In this document: positions 12,081-25,501 of the stretch, in pieces
How positions within the stretch are numbered: position 1 is the first letter of the stretch
Layout of the letters: every line of letters begins with the position of its first letter
Source: a virus
Length of the DNA stretch: 27,211 nucleotides
IMG/VR virus record: IMGVR_UViG_3300006802_000437
Location: 1 to 27,211 of that record
Reading direction: 5' to 3' (one strand)
Program-made: the position numbers and the translations under genes
The notes under the pieces: generated by a model
What the model was told of the DNA's origin: nothing
The model's input: the letters and a program-made list of their open reading frames with translations, nothing else
The model's database searches: none

Positions 12081-12367
12081 AGTTTAGTTATCTTTACAAT
12101 AACTGTATTAGGAATGATAGTAGTATTTCCTATAGATTCTATCTCTCCCTTATCATCTGTGGAACAGTCTGCAAACAGTCTAGTAATACCTTTAGACTGA
12201 CTAAATAAATGTCCTTTAGAAGTACAAGTAGCTAGTCTAGCTTTTTTGAGATCTTCAATAGTTAACCAACTCGCATCACTCACGATGTCCAACCAGTCTA
12301 CAGCTACCATAGGAAATTTATCTTTCCAATGTTTGGCTCGTTTTTTAATTACTATTTTTTTATTCAT
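12077..12367 (-). CDS. Conserved small protein between halogenase and oxygenase (96 aa)
   Basis: Begins with a basic stretch (MNKKIVIKKRAKHWKDKF) followed by VDWLDIVSDASWLTIEDLKKARLA, then CTSKGHLFSQ and KGITRLFADCS, and ends NTTIIPNTVIVKITKL. I recall short phage proteins with a DW.DI.SD.SW, CTSKGHL.SQ.KG..R pattern, of unknown function, also outside halogenase loci, so a dedicated halogenase partner is not certain. It overlaps the halogenase stop by 8 bases and the oxygenase start by 4, so its dosage is tied to both. Confidence 0.8.
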   Translation of the reverse strand: MNKKIVIKKRAKHWKDKFPMVAVDWLDIVSDASWLTIEDLKKARLATCTSKGHLFSQSKGITRLFADCSTDDKGEIESIGNTTIIPNTVIVKITKL

Positions 12368-13811
12368 CTACTACTCTTTCTCCTTTCATAACTTGTTGAA
12401 GCCATTTATCATGATAAATATACTCCACAGCAAACTGCTGATCTACCTCATGGTTTTTTTCGAAAAATAGCTGTTTTTTGATAGCCTCAGGTAAAGCTTC
12501 ATAGTGTGATTTGACCATATCTTGATCTAACAAACCCATTCCATACATTACGATTGCATAATGTTGATCTCTCCATAATGCATAATGGCCATCATCAAAA
12601 TCATCTTTAGTTAATAATCTGCTTTTAACTATTTCTAGTTTAGCAGCAAGACTATCTGGTATATCCATACTAGCCTTATCTCTCCAAAACTTAGTGTCTG
12701 TTCTTTTAGTTCTGTAGTGTAATATTAAAAAGTCTCTGATGTTCTCAACCAACTTAATAAATTGTTTATTGTATCTATTAATAACAACCTGATCATAATT
12801 AATTAAATTTGTAGCTAACATAAATGATTGTTGTACTGATGTTGCAATAGAAGAAGCTTCTAATGGTTCAAAAAAACTACCCGTTAAACCAATAGCAAAA
12901 CAATTACCTTTCCAGGTCTCTTCTAAATAACCAGCTGTAAATCTTATAGTCCTAATATTATCTTTAGCTGCAAGCTCAACATTATTTATTTCTTCCATAG
13001 CCTCATCCTCTGACAAATAGTTAGAATCAAATATGTATCCATTACCTTGTTTGTCTTGTAGAGGTACTTTAAATTTCCAACCTGCTGACAGTGCATGAGC
13101 TTCAGTCCATAGATCAGGTACTTCATCCTTATAGGTACGATATGTAATAGCTGTATTTAATGATAACCAAGGATCTACACCAATCCACTTAGCATTTAAT
13201 TTAGACATTAATAATTTTTTAAAACCTGTAGCATCAATCCAGAAATTAGAATGATATATGACTTTACCTTTTACTGAATGTATTCCATGCTCTCCTGTAT
13301 GTACTTCTGTAATCTCATCATCAATAACATTAACACCACGTTCTTCACTTTTCTTTTTTAAGAATGTATTTAATTTAAGATTATCAAAATGAAATTGGTT
13401 AACTGGTTTTCTAACTTCACCATTTAATTGTTTAGCTAAATGTTCTACAGGGCCAATATGTATACCAGAATAATTATTATAAAATTTATATAATAATTTA
13501 ATTTTGGTATTGAAATAATCTTTCATAATAGAATTATCTACTGAATGAATATAATCTTTATGACCCCAATTTTTGTAATAAATAGATGTCTTTAATGTAA
13601 CTCCACATTCTCTAATAATTTCATCTGCTGTAATACCAACAGTTTTAATAAAAGTATCCCAATGAGGTGTACTACCTTCTCCTACTCCAATAATACCAAT
13701 CTTATCAGATTTAATTAAATTAATATTTAGATGAGGATATTTTGTTTTTAAAACTAATGCAGCTACATAACCTGCAGTACCACCACCAACAATACAAAGA
13801 TCACTTTTCAT
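12360..13811 (-). CDS. Flavin-dependent tryptophan-halogenase family protein (483 aa)
   Basis: An FADH2-dependent halogenase of the PrnA/RebH family (Trp_halogenase). Seen: FAD-binding IVGGGTAGYVAA (7-18), GVGEGSTPH (42-50), the candidate catalytic lysine K74 in TLKTSIYYKNW, the halogenase motif as GWKFKVP (244-250, a WxFxVP variant of WxWxIP), IDATGF (192-197), and GSFFEPLEASS (311-321) with the active-site glutamate. Thus it looks catalytically intact. These enzymes oxidise halide to a hypohalous acid that reacts via the lysine. A cyanophage member (VirX1) halogenates varied substrates, so the substrate need not be free tryptophan. No flavin reductase is encoded nearby, so it would use a host reductase. 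It overlaps the 35-aa frame upstream and the 96-aa gene downstream. Confidence 0.92.
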   Translation of the reverse strand: MKSDLCIVGGGTAGYVAALVLKTKYPHLNINLIKSDKIGIIGVGEGSTPHWDTFIKTVGITADEIIRECGVTLKTSIYYKNWGHKDYIHSVDNSIMKDYFNTKIKLLYKFYNNYSGIHIGPVEHLAKQLNGEVRKPVNQFHFDNLKLNTFLKKKSEERGVNVIDDEITEVHTGEHGIHSVKGKVIYHSNFWIDATGFKKLLMSKLNAKWIGVDPWLSLNTAITYRTYKDEVPDLWTEAHALSAGWKFKVPLQDKQGNGYIFDSNYLSEDEAMEEINNVELAAKDNIRTIRFTAGYLEETWKGNCFAIGLTGSFFEPLEASSIATSVQQSFMLATNLINYDQVVINRYNKQFIKLVENIRDFLILHYRTKRTDTKFWRDKASMDIPDSLAAKLEIVKSRLLTKDDFDDGHYALWRDQHYAIVMYGMGLLDQDMVKSHYEALPEAIKKQLFFEKNHEVDQQFAVEYIYHDKWLQQVMKGERVVDE

Positions 13812-13908
13812 CGACTTTTACATTAATTACGCCTAGTGATGTCATCAAGTGACTGTTGTGTCTTTTATTAAATATTTTAATAAACTCAGACCAACTAGCC
13901 CTGTTCAA
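13801..13908 (-). CDS. Possible short protein linking TerS and halogenase (35 aa, TTG start)
   Basis: After the TerS stop an overlapping frame reads NRASWSEFIKIFNKRHNSHL and ends NVKVDEK. A TTG at 13908 with AAGAG just upstream, or a frame extending back inside terS to an ATG, could start it. Its stop overlaps the halogenase ATG by 11 bases, so it could couple TerS translation to the halogenase. Composition looks protein-like (aromatic and charged residues evenly spread), but no family is known. An alternative is a frameshifted extension of TerS. Confidence 0.4.
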   Translation of the reverse strand: MNRASWSEFIKIFNKRHNSHLMTSLGVINVKVDEK

Positions 13909-14419
13909 TCTCTTTTGTGTCTTCAATAACTTCGATGGTTTTTGCATTGTATCCATCGATTTTATTTGAAAGCTCTTTGAGTTTTTTTTCAAGCTCTTCA
14001 CGTGACATACCCTCCAGACCAGTTACTTTTACTTCTCTCCTATCTACATACTGACCTGCTAATTGTCCAGATCTGTATTCAGCATTAATAGCAGCAGCAT
14101 ATTGTTTATCAGCTTCTGCATTTAAAGCAATTCGTTCTAATCTTTTATATCGTCTTAGGTTATCACCTTCATACTTCGCACATTCTTCCTTATAAATTTT
14201 ATCTAAATATTTAACAACGTGAGGGTTCAATTTTCTATTTGTTAATCTACTAGCTATAACTGAATAATCATTCGAATTCTTACATTCATATCCCGCTTCT
14301 TTTAAAGCATCAGCTTTTGTGATATTGCCCCAATTTTTAACATAGATATCCACAAACTTCTTTTGCTTTAGAGTCAAGTCATCTTCTGTTCTCAGTTCTT
14401 TCTTTTTCAATCCTGGCAT
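13895..14419 (-). CDS. terS: Terminase small subunit (174 aa)
   Basis: The DNA-recognition subunit of the packaging motor. The N-terminal region LTLKQKKFVDIYVKNWGN followed by KADALKEAGY is the typical TerS helix-turn-helix opening (Terminase_2 type: KQ.KFV..Y...GN.T.AA..AGY), here residues about 16-44. The middle (RRYKRLERIALNAEADKQYAAAINAEYRSGQLAGQY) matches the oligomerising helices and the DRREV end seen in the family. The C-terminal 40 residues are charged and probably disordered. It binds a packaging start site, and the repeat array just upstream (14508-14610) is a candidate. Unusually it is not adjacent to terL. Confidence 0.85.
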   Translation of the reverse strand: MPGLKKKELRTEDDLTLKQKKFVDIYVKNWGNITKADALKEAGYECKNSNDYSVIASRLTNRKLNPHVVKYLDKIYKEECAKYEGDNLRRYKRLERIALNAEADKQYAAAINAEYRSGQLAGQYVDRREVKVTGLEGMSREELEKKLKELSNKIDGYNAKTIEVIEDTKEIEQG

Positions 14420-14427
14420 ATTTTCTA

Positions 14428-14663
14428 CTATATAGATATTTCAGACCTCTGTACACTATTTGAAAAAGTAAAAATTTACTGCTCCACAAGACACACATAG
14501 TCCTAATGTGTCCCTCAGGGACACCACAGGGACACCACAGGGACACCATAGAATCGTCTATAAATGTTGGTATTAGCGAATAATAGTCTTCAGGGACACC
14601 AGGGACACCACTTTAGGGTTCCAAGCAAATTATTTTATTGAAAGGGTAGAGATATCTATATAG
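14428..14663. repeat. 12-bp inverted repeats flanking the GGGACAC array
   Basis: CTATATAGATAT at 14428-14439 and ATATCTATATAG at 14652-14663 are exact inverted copies, 212 bases apart, and enclose the repeat array. The sequence is AT-rich, so chance is not excluded, but position and symmetry are notable. Confidence 0.6.
14508..14610. repeat. GGGACAC iteron-like array
   Basis: CAGGGACACCA occurs three times head-to-tail with an 11-bp period (14516-14548). Two more AGGGACACC copies follow at 14592-14609 with a 9-bp step. Inverted GTGTCCC copies are at 14508-14514, forming a GTGTCCCT-C-AGGGACAC palindrome (14508-14524), and at 14738-14744. An 11-bp period places the sites on one face of the helix. 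Confidence 0.9.
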
Positions 14664-14780
14664 AGGAATTTCCGGTATCCGTTGTAACGTACGGTGTTTT
14701 ACTTGAAGAATCCTACCAAATACAGTACACTGGCCATGTGTCCCAAGTGAGTTTTTAACATTATAGCTCTTACGATCATT

Positions 14781-18043: not shown

Positions 18044-18220
18044 ATGTCCTCTAATAAAACCTTAATCATAAATGATTACAAAAAATATTGGATTACTGAT
18101 ACCAAGAAGGGTCATTTAATAACTATTTGTCATGGGCCAGAAGATAAAGTTTTAAAGTTAAAATTAAATTGGAAAAATAGACATCGAAGTAATGCAGGAA
18201 GAGTCCTTAATAAAAGATAG
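18044..18220 (+). CDS. Small basic protein (58 aa)
   Basis: An ATG at 18044 opens a 58-codon frame: MSSNKTLIINDYKKYWITDT, then KKGHLITICHGPEDKVLKL and a basic end NWKNRHRSNAGRVLNKR. Strand-rich with a positively charged tail. It fills the gap between the 62-aa gene and the oxygenase, overlapping the latter by 29 bases. No family recognised; supported by position and protein-like composition. Confidence 0.55.
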   Translation: MSSNKTLIINDYKKYWITDTKKGHLITICHGPEDKVLKLKLNWKNRHRSNAGRVLNKR

Positions 18221-18707
18221 CTGGATTTATAATGTACCTAAACACATAGTACATAAACCAATTCTCATTGATAAAATGAGATTGATACCACAAAATAAAA
18301 TAGATCAAATTTCACACACTGATTATAATTTACCTGCGAGTATGATTATTGAGTGGAGAGAATATTTTTTTAAAAATATTTATCATGAATTTAAATTAGA
18401 CTTTGAAGATAAGATTAAAAGTAAAATTGGTTTACACAACGCCTGGTTCCAATGGTATGAAAAAAATGATTTTCATGTATGGCATATTCATGGAGGTGTT
18501 CACTTTACAAATATTTATTATTTATCTATGCCAAACAAAGAAGTTAAAACAACTATTAAACATATTGAGCAGCTAAAATCTTTTGATGTAATGGAAGGAC
18601 AGATCTTAACTATACCCTCTTATTGGTGGCACAAGTCTCCAGTAAATTTGTTTGATGATCCTAAAATTATTATCTCTTTTAATACTTCAATTAAAATGAA
18701 CGAATAG
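18192..18707 (+). CDS. 2OG-Fe(II) oxygenase-like protein, HxH type (171 aa)
   Basis: Residues NAWFQWYEKNDFHVWHIHGG (83-102) carry the paired histidines H98/H100, and IPSYWWHKSP (141-150) the distal H147, followed by KIIISFNTSI. This is the layout of the putative 2OG-Fe(II) oxygenase family PF13759 common in marine phages (W.N.Y.KGD...HIH, then PS...H...). A usual 2OG-binding arginine after the distal histidine is not obvious here, since the segment reads DDPKIIIS. So activity is less sure than for the HxD enzymes. Last gene of the rightward cluster, ending three bases from the convergent polymerase gene. Confidence 0.7.
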   Translation: MQEESLIKDSWIYNVPKHIVHKPILIDKMRLIPQNKIDQISHTDYNLPASMIIEWREYFFKNIYHEFKLDFEDKIKSKIGLHNAWFQWYEKNDFHVWHIHGGVHFTNIYYLSMPNKEVKTTIKHIEQLKSFDVMEGQILTIPSYWWHKSPVNLFDDPKIIISFNTSIKMNE

Positions 18708-22370: not shown

Positions 22371-23973
22371 AGTTTGCCTCGTAAAGTTTAAAGTATTTAC
22401 CTAATGGAAAGTTATATTGATGATAGGTGCCTAATAAATGCAACGTACCTTTAGATCTTGTTGCACCTGTATACCAAACTCTAAGTTCTTTTACTTTATC
22501 CATTAAGTTTTTCTTCTCAAAATGAGAAGGATAATTACATTTACTTGCTAAAACTACATTATCAGCTTCTCCGCCTTTGACTTGGTGAATAGTATCTATA
22601 ATTATCTTTGGTGGCAAGTTTAAATCTATACCCTCTTTCATTAATTTTTTAAAATACAACTTATCTTTTTCCTTAAATTTTCTTTTAAAAGCATCTTCCC
22701 AGCTGCTTTTTTGATCTCTCATACCACACCTCAAATGTAATTCGTCAAAATTAAACACCTGATTCGGATGAGCAAAGCTCCATTTTTTGCTGTCCGCTGA
22801 CCGGTAGCCGTGATCTATGTTTAAAAGAAACTCATACATTACTGTTGCTTCTTCTCTTGTTATAGATCCACCTTGATTAATTTTATTCCAATACTCAATA
22901 GCTAAAAATTGATTAGTATCAAATGATCTATTACCTTTTACATCTTGATAATATAATGAAAGATTTCTTGCTTCTTGCTGCAATTCTTTTTTTACATCGT
23001 TTATTCTAGCAAGTACCATCCAAGATCCTTCCATGTCCCAAGGTACTTTTTTTAATCCATTCCATCTATGAATAGATCCTTCTTTACCATTAGATATAAA
23101 TTCTTTTTTTATTCTATTATCTCCCATAGAATTTAAAATACATTTAGAAAAGAAATGTACATTTTTATTAAGTCTTACAGATTTTTTTAATATAACTTTA
23201 CGACCTGGAAAAGTTTGAAAGTGTTCTACATCTGCACCATTCCATTCATAAATAGCCTGGTCATCATCTCCAGCTAGATAAACTCTATGTACTTGTGCCG
23301 CTAACTTAACAACCAAGTCCCATTGTAAAGGTGTTAAATCCTGAGCTTCATCTACCATTAAGACTCTAAAAGGTATTGATAAACCATCATCAATAAATTT
23401 TTGTATCATATCAGTAAAATCTAATCTGTCCGGTGTCCGTTGTCCGTTTTCTAACTCCATAGTTTTAAATTCTTCATAACCTGCAATAATAGATTTGAAT
23501 TGCTGCAACCTTACAGCTTTTCTTGGCTGCTGTTTGTACAGCCACACAGGATCTACTTTCATGTTTCTAGCTCTGTCATAAATTTGTAGCGACCAATTGT
23601 TATAAACTTTTTGCTCATCATGACCTTCTTTAAAATTTACTTTTACAGTTCCATATTGTGTATGAAACGTAATCATATCCACTTTAGGATCTAGTACAGG
23701 AATCTCTGCAAATTGTTGTCTTGCTAAACTATGTAGGGTTCTAAAATATTTAAAGTCATCTTCATCATACTCTTTAAATTTTTTTCTTACACGACTTACA
23801 CATTCGTCAACAGCTTTGTTAGTAAATGATATATAACATATTTCATCAGGTGAATAACCTTGTCGTAAGTATCTTTGTACTCGTTTTAAAAGGTTCTCAG
23901 TTTTACCTGTCCCTGGAGGGCCAAATATTTTAACTGTCTTCCCATGCAGCTTTTGCTTTAGTAAATTTGACAT
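22363..23973 (-). CDS. UvrD/PcrA-like superfamily 1 helicase (536 aa)
   Basis: An ATP-dependent 3'-5' type DNA helicase candidate. Motifs in order: FGPPGTGKT (I, 17-25), YISFTNKAVDEC (Ia, 47-58), VLMVDEAQDL (II, 204-213), LAGDDDQAIYEWNGA (III, 233-247), SVRLNKN (IV-like), TIHQVKGGEADNVVLA (V, 461-476) and VWYTGATRSKGTLHL (VI, 499-513). Shorter than UvrD (about 720 aa), as in phage versions. It likely works with the primase and SSB-like protein at the fork. Its start overlaps the primase end by 44 bases. Confidence 0.94.
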   Translation of the reverse strand: MSNLLKQKLHGKTVKIFGPPGTGKTENLLKRVQRYLRQGYSPDEICYISFTNKAVDECVSRVRKKFKEYDEDDFKYFRTLHSLARQQFAEIPVLDPKVDMITFHTQYGTVKVNFKEGHDEQKVYNNWSLQIYDRARNMKVDPVWLYKQQPRKAVRLQQFKSIIAGYEEFKTMELENGQRTPDRLDFTDMIQKFIDDGLSIPFRVLMVDEAQDLTPLQWDLVVKLAAQVHRVYLAGDDDQAIYEWNGADVEHFQTFPGRKVILKKSVRLNKNVHFFSKCILNSMGDNRIKKEFISNGKEGSIHRWNGLKKVPWDMEGSWMVLARINDVKKELQQEARNLSLYYQDVKGNRSFDTNQFLAIEYWNKINQGGSITREEATVMYEFLLNIDHGYRSADSKKWSFAHPNQVFNFDELHLRCGMRDQKSSWEDAFKRKFKEKDKLYFKKLMKEGIDLNLPPKIIIDTIHQVKGGEADNVVLASKCNYPSHFEKKNLMDKVKELRVWYTGATRSKGTLHLLGTYHQYNFPLGKYFKLYEANYV

Positions 23974-25501
23974 TTTTATTTTTGTGTTCCATTTGTTTTG
24001 GTAATGCTACAACCCAATGTCTGCTATCAATAGCTTGAAATTTCTTTTTAGGTTTAGCACCTCCCGATTCTAAAAATTTAGTACAATCTTTTTCTGACCA
24101 GTTATAACCCATTTTTTTAATAAATTGTCTAAATGTTTCTAATTTAAATCTCATCTCAGAATCATCCTTCCAAATATTACCATTATCAATTTGGTCAAAC
24201 TCAGTTGTATCTTCAACATCTTCCAAAAACCTAGACATTCTAGAATTAAATACATCACCCATTTCTTCTGCTGCATCAAATCCTTCCATGTCTTGTTTGT
24301 TAGATATTAACTCTTCTAGCCAATCTCTGTAAGGGTCAGGGTCTCTTTTAGAAGGCTTTAAAGTACGCCAAACTATATCATAATTAAGCAATGCTTCCCC
24401 TAATAGCTGCTGTTGATATAATTGTTTAGTAGATAATCTAATTGATTTACCTTGGATGGGTAATATCCAATAAGGTTCAGGGTAAGAATTAACTTTTAAA
24501 AGTTTTCCTACTTCGGGTAACGCTTCATTAGTTCCAATCCCAAACTTACGCTTAACGCAAGTAGATGATACGCAGTGCATTCTAGCGATTGACGTTTTAC
24601 ATTTGTACGCATATTCTTTATTTTCTACACCTTTAAAAATATTTTGCAACTCTTTAGGATGTAAGTTTTCAGAACAAACTTTAGTCATCATATTTCTAGT
24701 CCAATCTTCATACATAACTGGATCAGGATTTATTTTTTTTGCTAATACTGCTACGTTAAACATAGCATCATTTCTACCCTCACCTTTTTGCACTCTGTTT
24801 TTCATAAAGTTAATTACACAAGGTGGGTAATCTTTAGTTTCATCATCTTGAAATATTTTTAATTTTTTAAAGTCTGCTGGTTTTAATCTGTAAGGTTTTA
24901 CAAATTCAAATAAATTTTCTATTTTAATTCCGTTACCATTGTCATCCATAGCAACACGAGTTGTCATATGTGCTTTTTGATATGGTAAGTTTACAAAGTT
25001 ACCTTTTCTTTTGTCGTCCCATTTTTCAGGAGATAGGTCTACTTCATCTTGAGCAGGATAGATGTCTGTTGTTGTGTCGTTGATTCCTAAGTCTGAGGCT
25101 ATCTCTATTAGTTTCTTACGCATTGCTGATGCAGCAACGACTCCATCAATAAATAATACTAAGTGTAATCCGTTGGATTTCGATCTGAACGGGATGAGTG
25201 GGTACTGTCTTTTCCGTATAACCGATATAACGTCCTTATGCTGTATATTATAACGATCAACATCGATGACCCCCCAAGAGCATGTATTATCATCTCTAAT
25301 TGGAACGCTTCCATAGTATGCTTCTCCTTTTAAATGTTGTTTCCAATGATCTAACGTCATTGGTTTTGGTTCAACCCAATGTTTGAATTCATTTTTGCCG
25401 TTCGGTTTTTTACTTCCTATAGGCTGAGATGCACCAAAATATGTAGATGAGCCCTGGAAGAGTTGTACAAACTCTTCCAAGGTTTTGTCAAGTAGACTCA
25501 T
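23930..25501 (-). CDS. Archaeo-eukaryotic-type primase (523 aa)
   Basis: N-terminal AEP/TOTE-type primase domain: GVIDVDRYN (D80, D82 metal ligands), RSKSNGLHLVLF (S109-H113) and GNFVNLPY (168-174). This is the catalytic triad order of prim-pol enzymes. Residues 225-320 form a PriCT-like part with cysteines C228, C301, C310 and C315 that could bind zinc or an Fe-S cluster. The C-terminal third is helical without helicase motifs, so unwinding is probably done by the neighbouring helicase. No DnaG- or T7-type primase is seen in the window. Family call from motifs. Confidence 0.85.
   Translation of the reverse strand: MSLLDKTLEEFVQLFQGSSTYFGASQPIGSKKPNGKNEFKHWVEPKPMTLDHWKQHLKGEAYYGSVPIRDDNTCSWGVIDVDRYNIQHKDVISVIRKRQYPLIPFRSKSNGLHLVLFIDGVVAASAMRKKLIEIASDLGINDTTTDIYPAQDEVDLSPEKWDDKRKGNFVNLPYQKAHMTTRVAMDDNGNGIKIENLFEFVKPYRLKPADFKKLKIFQDDETKDYPPCVINFMKNRVQKGEGRNDAMFNVAVLAKKINPDPVMYEDWTRNMMTKVCSENLHPKELQNIFKGVENKEYAYKCKTSIARMHCVSSTCVKRKFGIGTNEALPEVGKLLKVNSYPEPYWILPIQGKSIRLSTKQLYQQQLLGEALLNYDIVWRTLKPSKRDPDPYRDWLEELISNKQDMEGFDAAEEMGDVFNSRMSRFLEDVEDTTEFDQIDNGNIWKDDSEMRFKLETFRQFIKKMGYNWSEKDCTKFLESGGAKPKKKFQAIDSRHWVVALPKQMEHKNKNVKFTKAKAAWEDS

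Follow-up and report, generated by a model that had tools for sequence, protein, structure and literature searches.

Known systems with repeated sites read by a replication or packaging protein

Satellite phage P4, with its alpha protein and type I iterons, has a primase whose C-terminal origin-binding domain reads short direct repeats. The pelagiphage locus described here is likened to it through these general features alone, and it is unlike P4 in that the P4 primase is fused to an SF3 helicase.

In archaeo-eukaryotic primases (AEPs), a C-terminal winged helix has been proposed to read the origin through its recognition helix and wing (Kazlauskas et al., PMC5862659). The primase-initiators with a PriCT-1 domain and a C-terminal HTH or winged helix (ColE2 Rep, PolpTN2, RepE/RepS) share with the pelagiphage system an AEP primase for which a C-terminal origin-reading module is proposed (PMC5862659). 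The pelagiphage differs from them in having a separate SF1 helicase and a DNA polymerase A, in the distance of 7–10 kb between the primase gene and the array that is its putative origin, and in the fixed 9/55/11/11/10 arrangement of its many repeated sites.

Two further systems are close in other respects. In the PLE elements of Vibrio cholerae, the DNA-binding domain of RepA and its iterons co-vary, and specificity has switched several times, as was proven by origin swaps (PMC8263062). The pelagiphage locus shows the same kind of co-variation, between a putative initiator and its sites, with several switches, whereas RepA is a RepA_N initiator, not a primase, and its iterons are semi-palindromic and about 30 bp long (PMC8263062). 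In lambda cosB, protein sites flank an IHF bend just upstream of terS, as they appear to do here (PMC4669245); the pelagiphage sites, in contrast, co-vary with the primase and not with TerS, and no cosN was found.

The repeat array and its gene neighbours

The window, the whole stretch of 27,211 nt (27.2 kb) that was analysed, is a fragment of a relative of the HTVC023P-type pelagiphages. Its terL is 74% identical in DNA to that of Pelagibacter phage HTVC023P, and its TerS reaches 55% with the closest isolate. The genes for TerL, TerS, DNA polymerase A, an SF1-type helicase, and an AEP primase are all minus-strand genes. The small terminase subunit gene, terS, occupies 13895–14419 on the minus strand (phrog_51, E 3e-9; Pfam Terminase_2, 26.0 bits, marginally below the cut-off of 26.1), so the array lies directly upstream of it. 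Directly downstream of terS is a tryptophan halogenase gene (12360–13811; PF04820, E 7e-93). Elsewhere in the window, a 2OG-Fe(II) oxygenase-like gene (18192–18707; PF13759) runs on the strand opposite to nearly all other genes, and a 138-aa ORF between structural genes (973–1389) carries a LAGLIDADG-like motif, FLAGLFDGEGSF, and is possibly a homing endonuclease.

The earlier note had described a GGGACAC array with a palindrome and enclosing inverted repeats in the gap upstream of terS, and all of these are present and far beyond chance. Direct copies start at 14518, 14529, 14540, 14593, and 14602, and inverted copies at 14508 and 14738. All seven copies in the window lie in this gap, against 0.9 expected and a maximum of 4 in dinucleotide shuffles. 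Five copies of one GC-rich 7-mer within 361 bp occurred in 0 of 5000 Markov simulations, in which the maximum was 4, reached once. The 17-bp palindrome at 14508–14524 has 8-bp arms around one centre base. The exact 12-bp inverted repeat (14428–14439 and 14652–14663) was also confirmed, and by itself it would occur in about 4% of simulated 361-bp pieces. The propensity of the array DNA to form a hairpin is nothing special (z = -1.3), and a comparison of the array DNA with known phage records gave chance-level matches only.

A conserved element of about 225 bp

Conserved repeats, which the earlier note had proposed to look for in relatives, were found as one element of about 225 bp that recurs in about 250 IMG/VR contigs (195 distinct sequences); the relatives were collected via TerS, array DNA, and the primase. 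Read in terS orientation, the element starts with a TATATAGAT box, followed after about 50 bp by two GGTGTCCC sites 9 bp apart and a spacer of 53–55 bp. Next come a triplet of sites with 11-bp spacing, a single inverted site, a further 60–80 bp or so, and a ATCTATATA box, after which the start codon follows, either that of terS or that of a small inserted gene. The distance from array to terS is mostly 100 to 1400 bp. This iteron-type spacing of 9, 53–55, 11, 11, and 9–10 bp is helically phased and is kept in nearly all relatives.

In the window, the distal pair of direct sites lies at 14593–14608 on the minus strand, its 9-bp spacing kept in relatives, and the conserved triplet with its 11-bp period at 14518–14546, reading GTGTCCC in terS orientation. 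The inverted site at 14508–14514 (GTGTCCC on the plus strand, GGGACAC on the minus strand) forms the palindrome with the next site; its distance to the third direct site is 9–10 bp in the majority of relatives. The second inverted copy, at 14738, exists in the window and its closest relatives and falls outside the conserved element.

The spacer (14547–14592, minus strand) corresponds to the conserved 53–55 bp gap and contains a conserved A/T tract and an IHF-like core, TACCAACATTTAT, at 14560–14572 on the minus strand. Across relatives, spacers combine the A/T tract with a WATCAANNNNTTR-like core, and the IHF score is 9/9 in 21% of gaps versus 1.1% of shuffles; IHF-like here means a match to the consensus alone, and the core is frequently one or two bases off it.

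The two halves of the enclosing inverted repeat are AT boxes: the terS-proximal box at 14428–14439 (ATCTATATA on the minus strand) and the distal box at 14652–14663 (ATCTATATA on the plus strand, facing away from terS). Among the distinct elements, TATATAGAT is exact in 191/195 and ATCTATATA in 195/195, against about 3–3.6% in shuffles even when up to one mismatch is allowed. In long contigs the boxes flank every array and elsewhere occur at background level. A role as a genome-wide promoter motif was rejected on their background frequency away from arrays. Together with the A/T tract, the conserved boxes adjoin the repeats and form a candidate unwinding region.

The boxes could also be divergent -10 elements, with the array bound by the primase or another regulator that controls the late operon headed by terS or the inserted small genes. 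The terS-proximal box does overlap the -10 of a sigma-70-like match just ahead of the terS ATG, and the boxes face outwards on both sides. Transcription from the distal box, however, would enter the upstream gene at its 3' end, the promoter scan came out near chance (2 versus 1.3), and the sole co-varying protein is a replication enzyme, which makes transcriptional control quite unlikely. The promoter-like match itself, TGTACA-17-TATAGT at 14455–14427, ends about 8 nt before the ATG, so a transcript from it would be nearly leaderless; comparable spacing from TATA box to ATG recurs in relatives.

A concerted switch in the sites that TerS does not follow

In many relatives every site reads GTGTATC instead of GTGTCCC, with the spacing unchanged. 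Six sites changing in concert point to a protein that reads them in trans. Five loci (L494, L502, L503, L508, and L509) carry mixed arrays, with GTGGGTC and GTGTCCC within one element, together with a primase loop of the form KKFQ.NNTRHW; judged by their sequence, these chimeric arrays are possible intermediates of a change in specificity.

The first candidate for the reader is the neighbouring terminase. In a lambda-like cosB or pac site, TerS would bind the repeats as R sites around an IHF bend and start packaging by its own gene. The R-R / IHF-like / R-R-R layout beside terS resembles R3-I1-R2-R1 of lambda cosB (PMC4669245) so strikingly that packaging is the main rival explanation. In 262/262 loci with TerS on the same stretch, the array is found upstream of terS and shares its orientation. 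This constant position counts against an origin, which need not lie there. Moreover, 18 contigs begin at most 140 bp upstream of the triplet, where about 4.5 would be expected.

Against packaging, TerS does not track the array class. TerS proteins that are 95–97% identical stand beside either GTGTCCC or GTGTATC arrays, and the HTH recognition region of such pairs is free of differences. TerS of L100/L124 (GTGTCCC) is 97% identical to that of L284 (GTGTATC) and differs at residues 28, 70, 84, 148, and 163. Array classes do cluster on the TerS tree, yet at least six class changes are needed, with lone mismatches inside TerS clades. These comparisons contradict the suggestion of the earlier note that TerS is the sequence-specific reader. 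A separate search for covariation within the TerS HTH gave a best column (residue 54) with 0.61 of 1.0 bit, and it was discarded as it fails in L126, L100/L124, L186, and L064.

Among the contigs, an invariant cut site of the cosN type did not emerge, and those of genome scale cross the array without a break. Contig starts are spread over 4–137 bp upstream of the triplet (L254, L246, L290, L260, L180, and others), and no sharp genome end at the array was found among them, only a diffuse excess. This excess could mean that assemblies tend to break where an element is conserved, or that the genome end is diffuse. Packaging as the function of the array is considered unlikely, and a single site serving both origin and packaging is possible.

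The earlier note had also named a ParB-like protein as a potential reader, and a partition centromere of the ParB type would agree with the ParB-like gene that lies 1.5 kb from the array in the window. That gene is missing from several array-bearing contigs, e.g. G012 (83 kb) and G024 (59 kb, circular), and the centromere is highly improbable. What comparison favours among the readings of the earlier note is an initiator that binds the phased sites cooperatively at an origin; TerS and the ParB-like protein do not co-vary with the sites.

The primase co-varies with the sites

Protein columns that separate the array classes were sought in 28 shared families across 19 large contigs, 12 with GTGTCCC arrays (including the TerS exceptions G013 and G025) and 7 with GTGTATC arrays. 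Two columns of the primase, and none of any other family, separate the classes while being nearly invariant inside each; the separating columns of other families are hypervariable. In the GTGTATC phages, ORF calling had missed the primase, which was located by tblastn.

GTGTCCC arrays go with K486 and D/S492 in the primase, GTGTATC arrays with S/A486 and Q492, and mixed GTGGGTC/GTGTCCC arrays with K and N at these residues, the last pair having been noticed afterwards rather than predicted. The rule holds in 59/59 loci that have both primase and array (31 CC, 23 AT, and 5 mixed), and about 20 of the distinct proteins among them had not been used for discovery; one locus, L226, was read by eye. 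The held-out contigs G053 and G050, whose arrays lay beyond the fetched loci and were located by pattern search, fit as well (2/2). On a primase tree built without the two columns, five class changes are needed, and three independent, well-supported pairs all agree, a number too small for formal significance. In the closest contrasting pair, L425 (ALPKAKFKGIQTRHW, GTGTATC) versus G025/G013 (ALPKKKFQNISSRHW, GTGTCCC), the changes are local, and the loop stretch differs only by A/K, K/Q, G/N, Q/S, and T/S. Preferences of lysine for G and of glutamine for A are common in protein–DNA contacts, and residues 486 and 492 fit them.

The primase is a 523-aa protein of the AEP family encoded at 23930–25501 on the minus strand (PF22548 AEP-TOTE, E 5e-13; phrog_21866 primase) and is proposed here as the origin-binding initiator. 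Its full model has a mean pLDDT of 66 and an AEP fold, and Foldseek matched it to CAPP Prim-Pol (E 8e-9) and also to the RepB' primase and S-2L PrimPol; both Pfam and Foldseek support the presence of an AEP catalytic domain. At the C-terminus, AlphaFold2 predicts a beta-alpha-alpha-beta-hairpin domain (residues 443–499; 24005–24175, minus strand; pLDDT about 60–79), in which the hairpin loop of residues 486–492 (24026–24046, minus strand), placed by covariation and the model, would hold K486 and D492. A winged helix would show this order of strand, helix, helix, and hairpin and would place the discriminating residues in its wing; the model confidence is modest. The C-terminus gave no Pfam family and no significant Foldseek match; the PriCT_1 profile hit 15 of 58 members of the primase family (best E 0.0086).

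One clade stands apart. L504/L525 combine a CTAGGAAA array beside a diverged terS with a related primase (KKFESINTRHW); the primase of L525 (loop KKFESINT) belongs to the main family, and so does that of L504. Isolate HTVC023P has CTAGGAAA repeats at the equivalent place and a 25%-identical primase, and in distant relatives including this isolate such arrays have a somewhat different spacing of 8, 44, and 11. Arrays of CTAGGAAA or TGGGAAA with a related layout were seen upstream of terS in L525/L504, L082 (11680–11771), L070, L073, and L074. The occurrence of CTAGGAAA arrays with such primases means that the code involves more than two residues or else that this array is a different site; in the latter case the origin of L525-type phages would be on the missing part of the contig.

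A model of the probable replication origin

Since the sequence changes of the element track two C-terminal amino acids of the primase and not the packaging protein, the element of about 225 bp is probably a replication origin, with the C-terminal domain of the primase as the reader of its iterons. The primase would bind the five direct and one inverted GGTGTnnC sites via its small winged-helix-like domain, with the two variable bases read by residues 486 and 492 of the hairpin loop. The spacer of 53–55 bp may carry an IHF-like bend that joins the pair to the triplet, and melting would occur at the flanking AT boxes (or at the A/T tract). The primase could then supply primers for DNA synthesis, which DNA polymerase A and the SF1 helicase of the phage itself would carry out. 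Physical binding, the role of IHF, melting, and origin function are all inferred. In nine long contigs, whose genes nearly all lie on one strand, GC skew did not switch at the array.

That the primase is the origin-recognition protein, and that natural populations have repeatedly switched between origin–initiator codes (CC, AT, and mixed), is a joint reading with roughly even chances. As part of it, a code would be switched via a few residues of one loop while six DNA sites change together, and the chimeric arrays would be possible intermediates that have survived.

Implications for pelagiphage biology

The HTVC023P-type pelagiphages rank with the most abundant phages of the ocean, and the texts searched are silent on where their replication starts; the text of a genome survey of this group leaves an origin of replication, a cos site, and such a repeat array unmentioned (PMC9599517). 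With a predicted origin, a reader put forward by name, and naturally occurring pairs, both matched and mismatched, origin recognition becomes directly testable in vitro, and the origin model yields predictions of replication coverage for uncultured phages. Six sites and two protein residues that switch in concert are a clear natural case of protein–DNA co-evolution. If the origin reading is true, these phages would hold a natural record of how origin specificity evolves.
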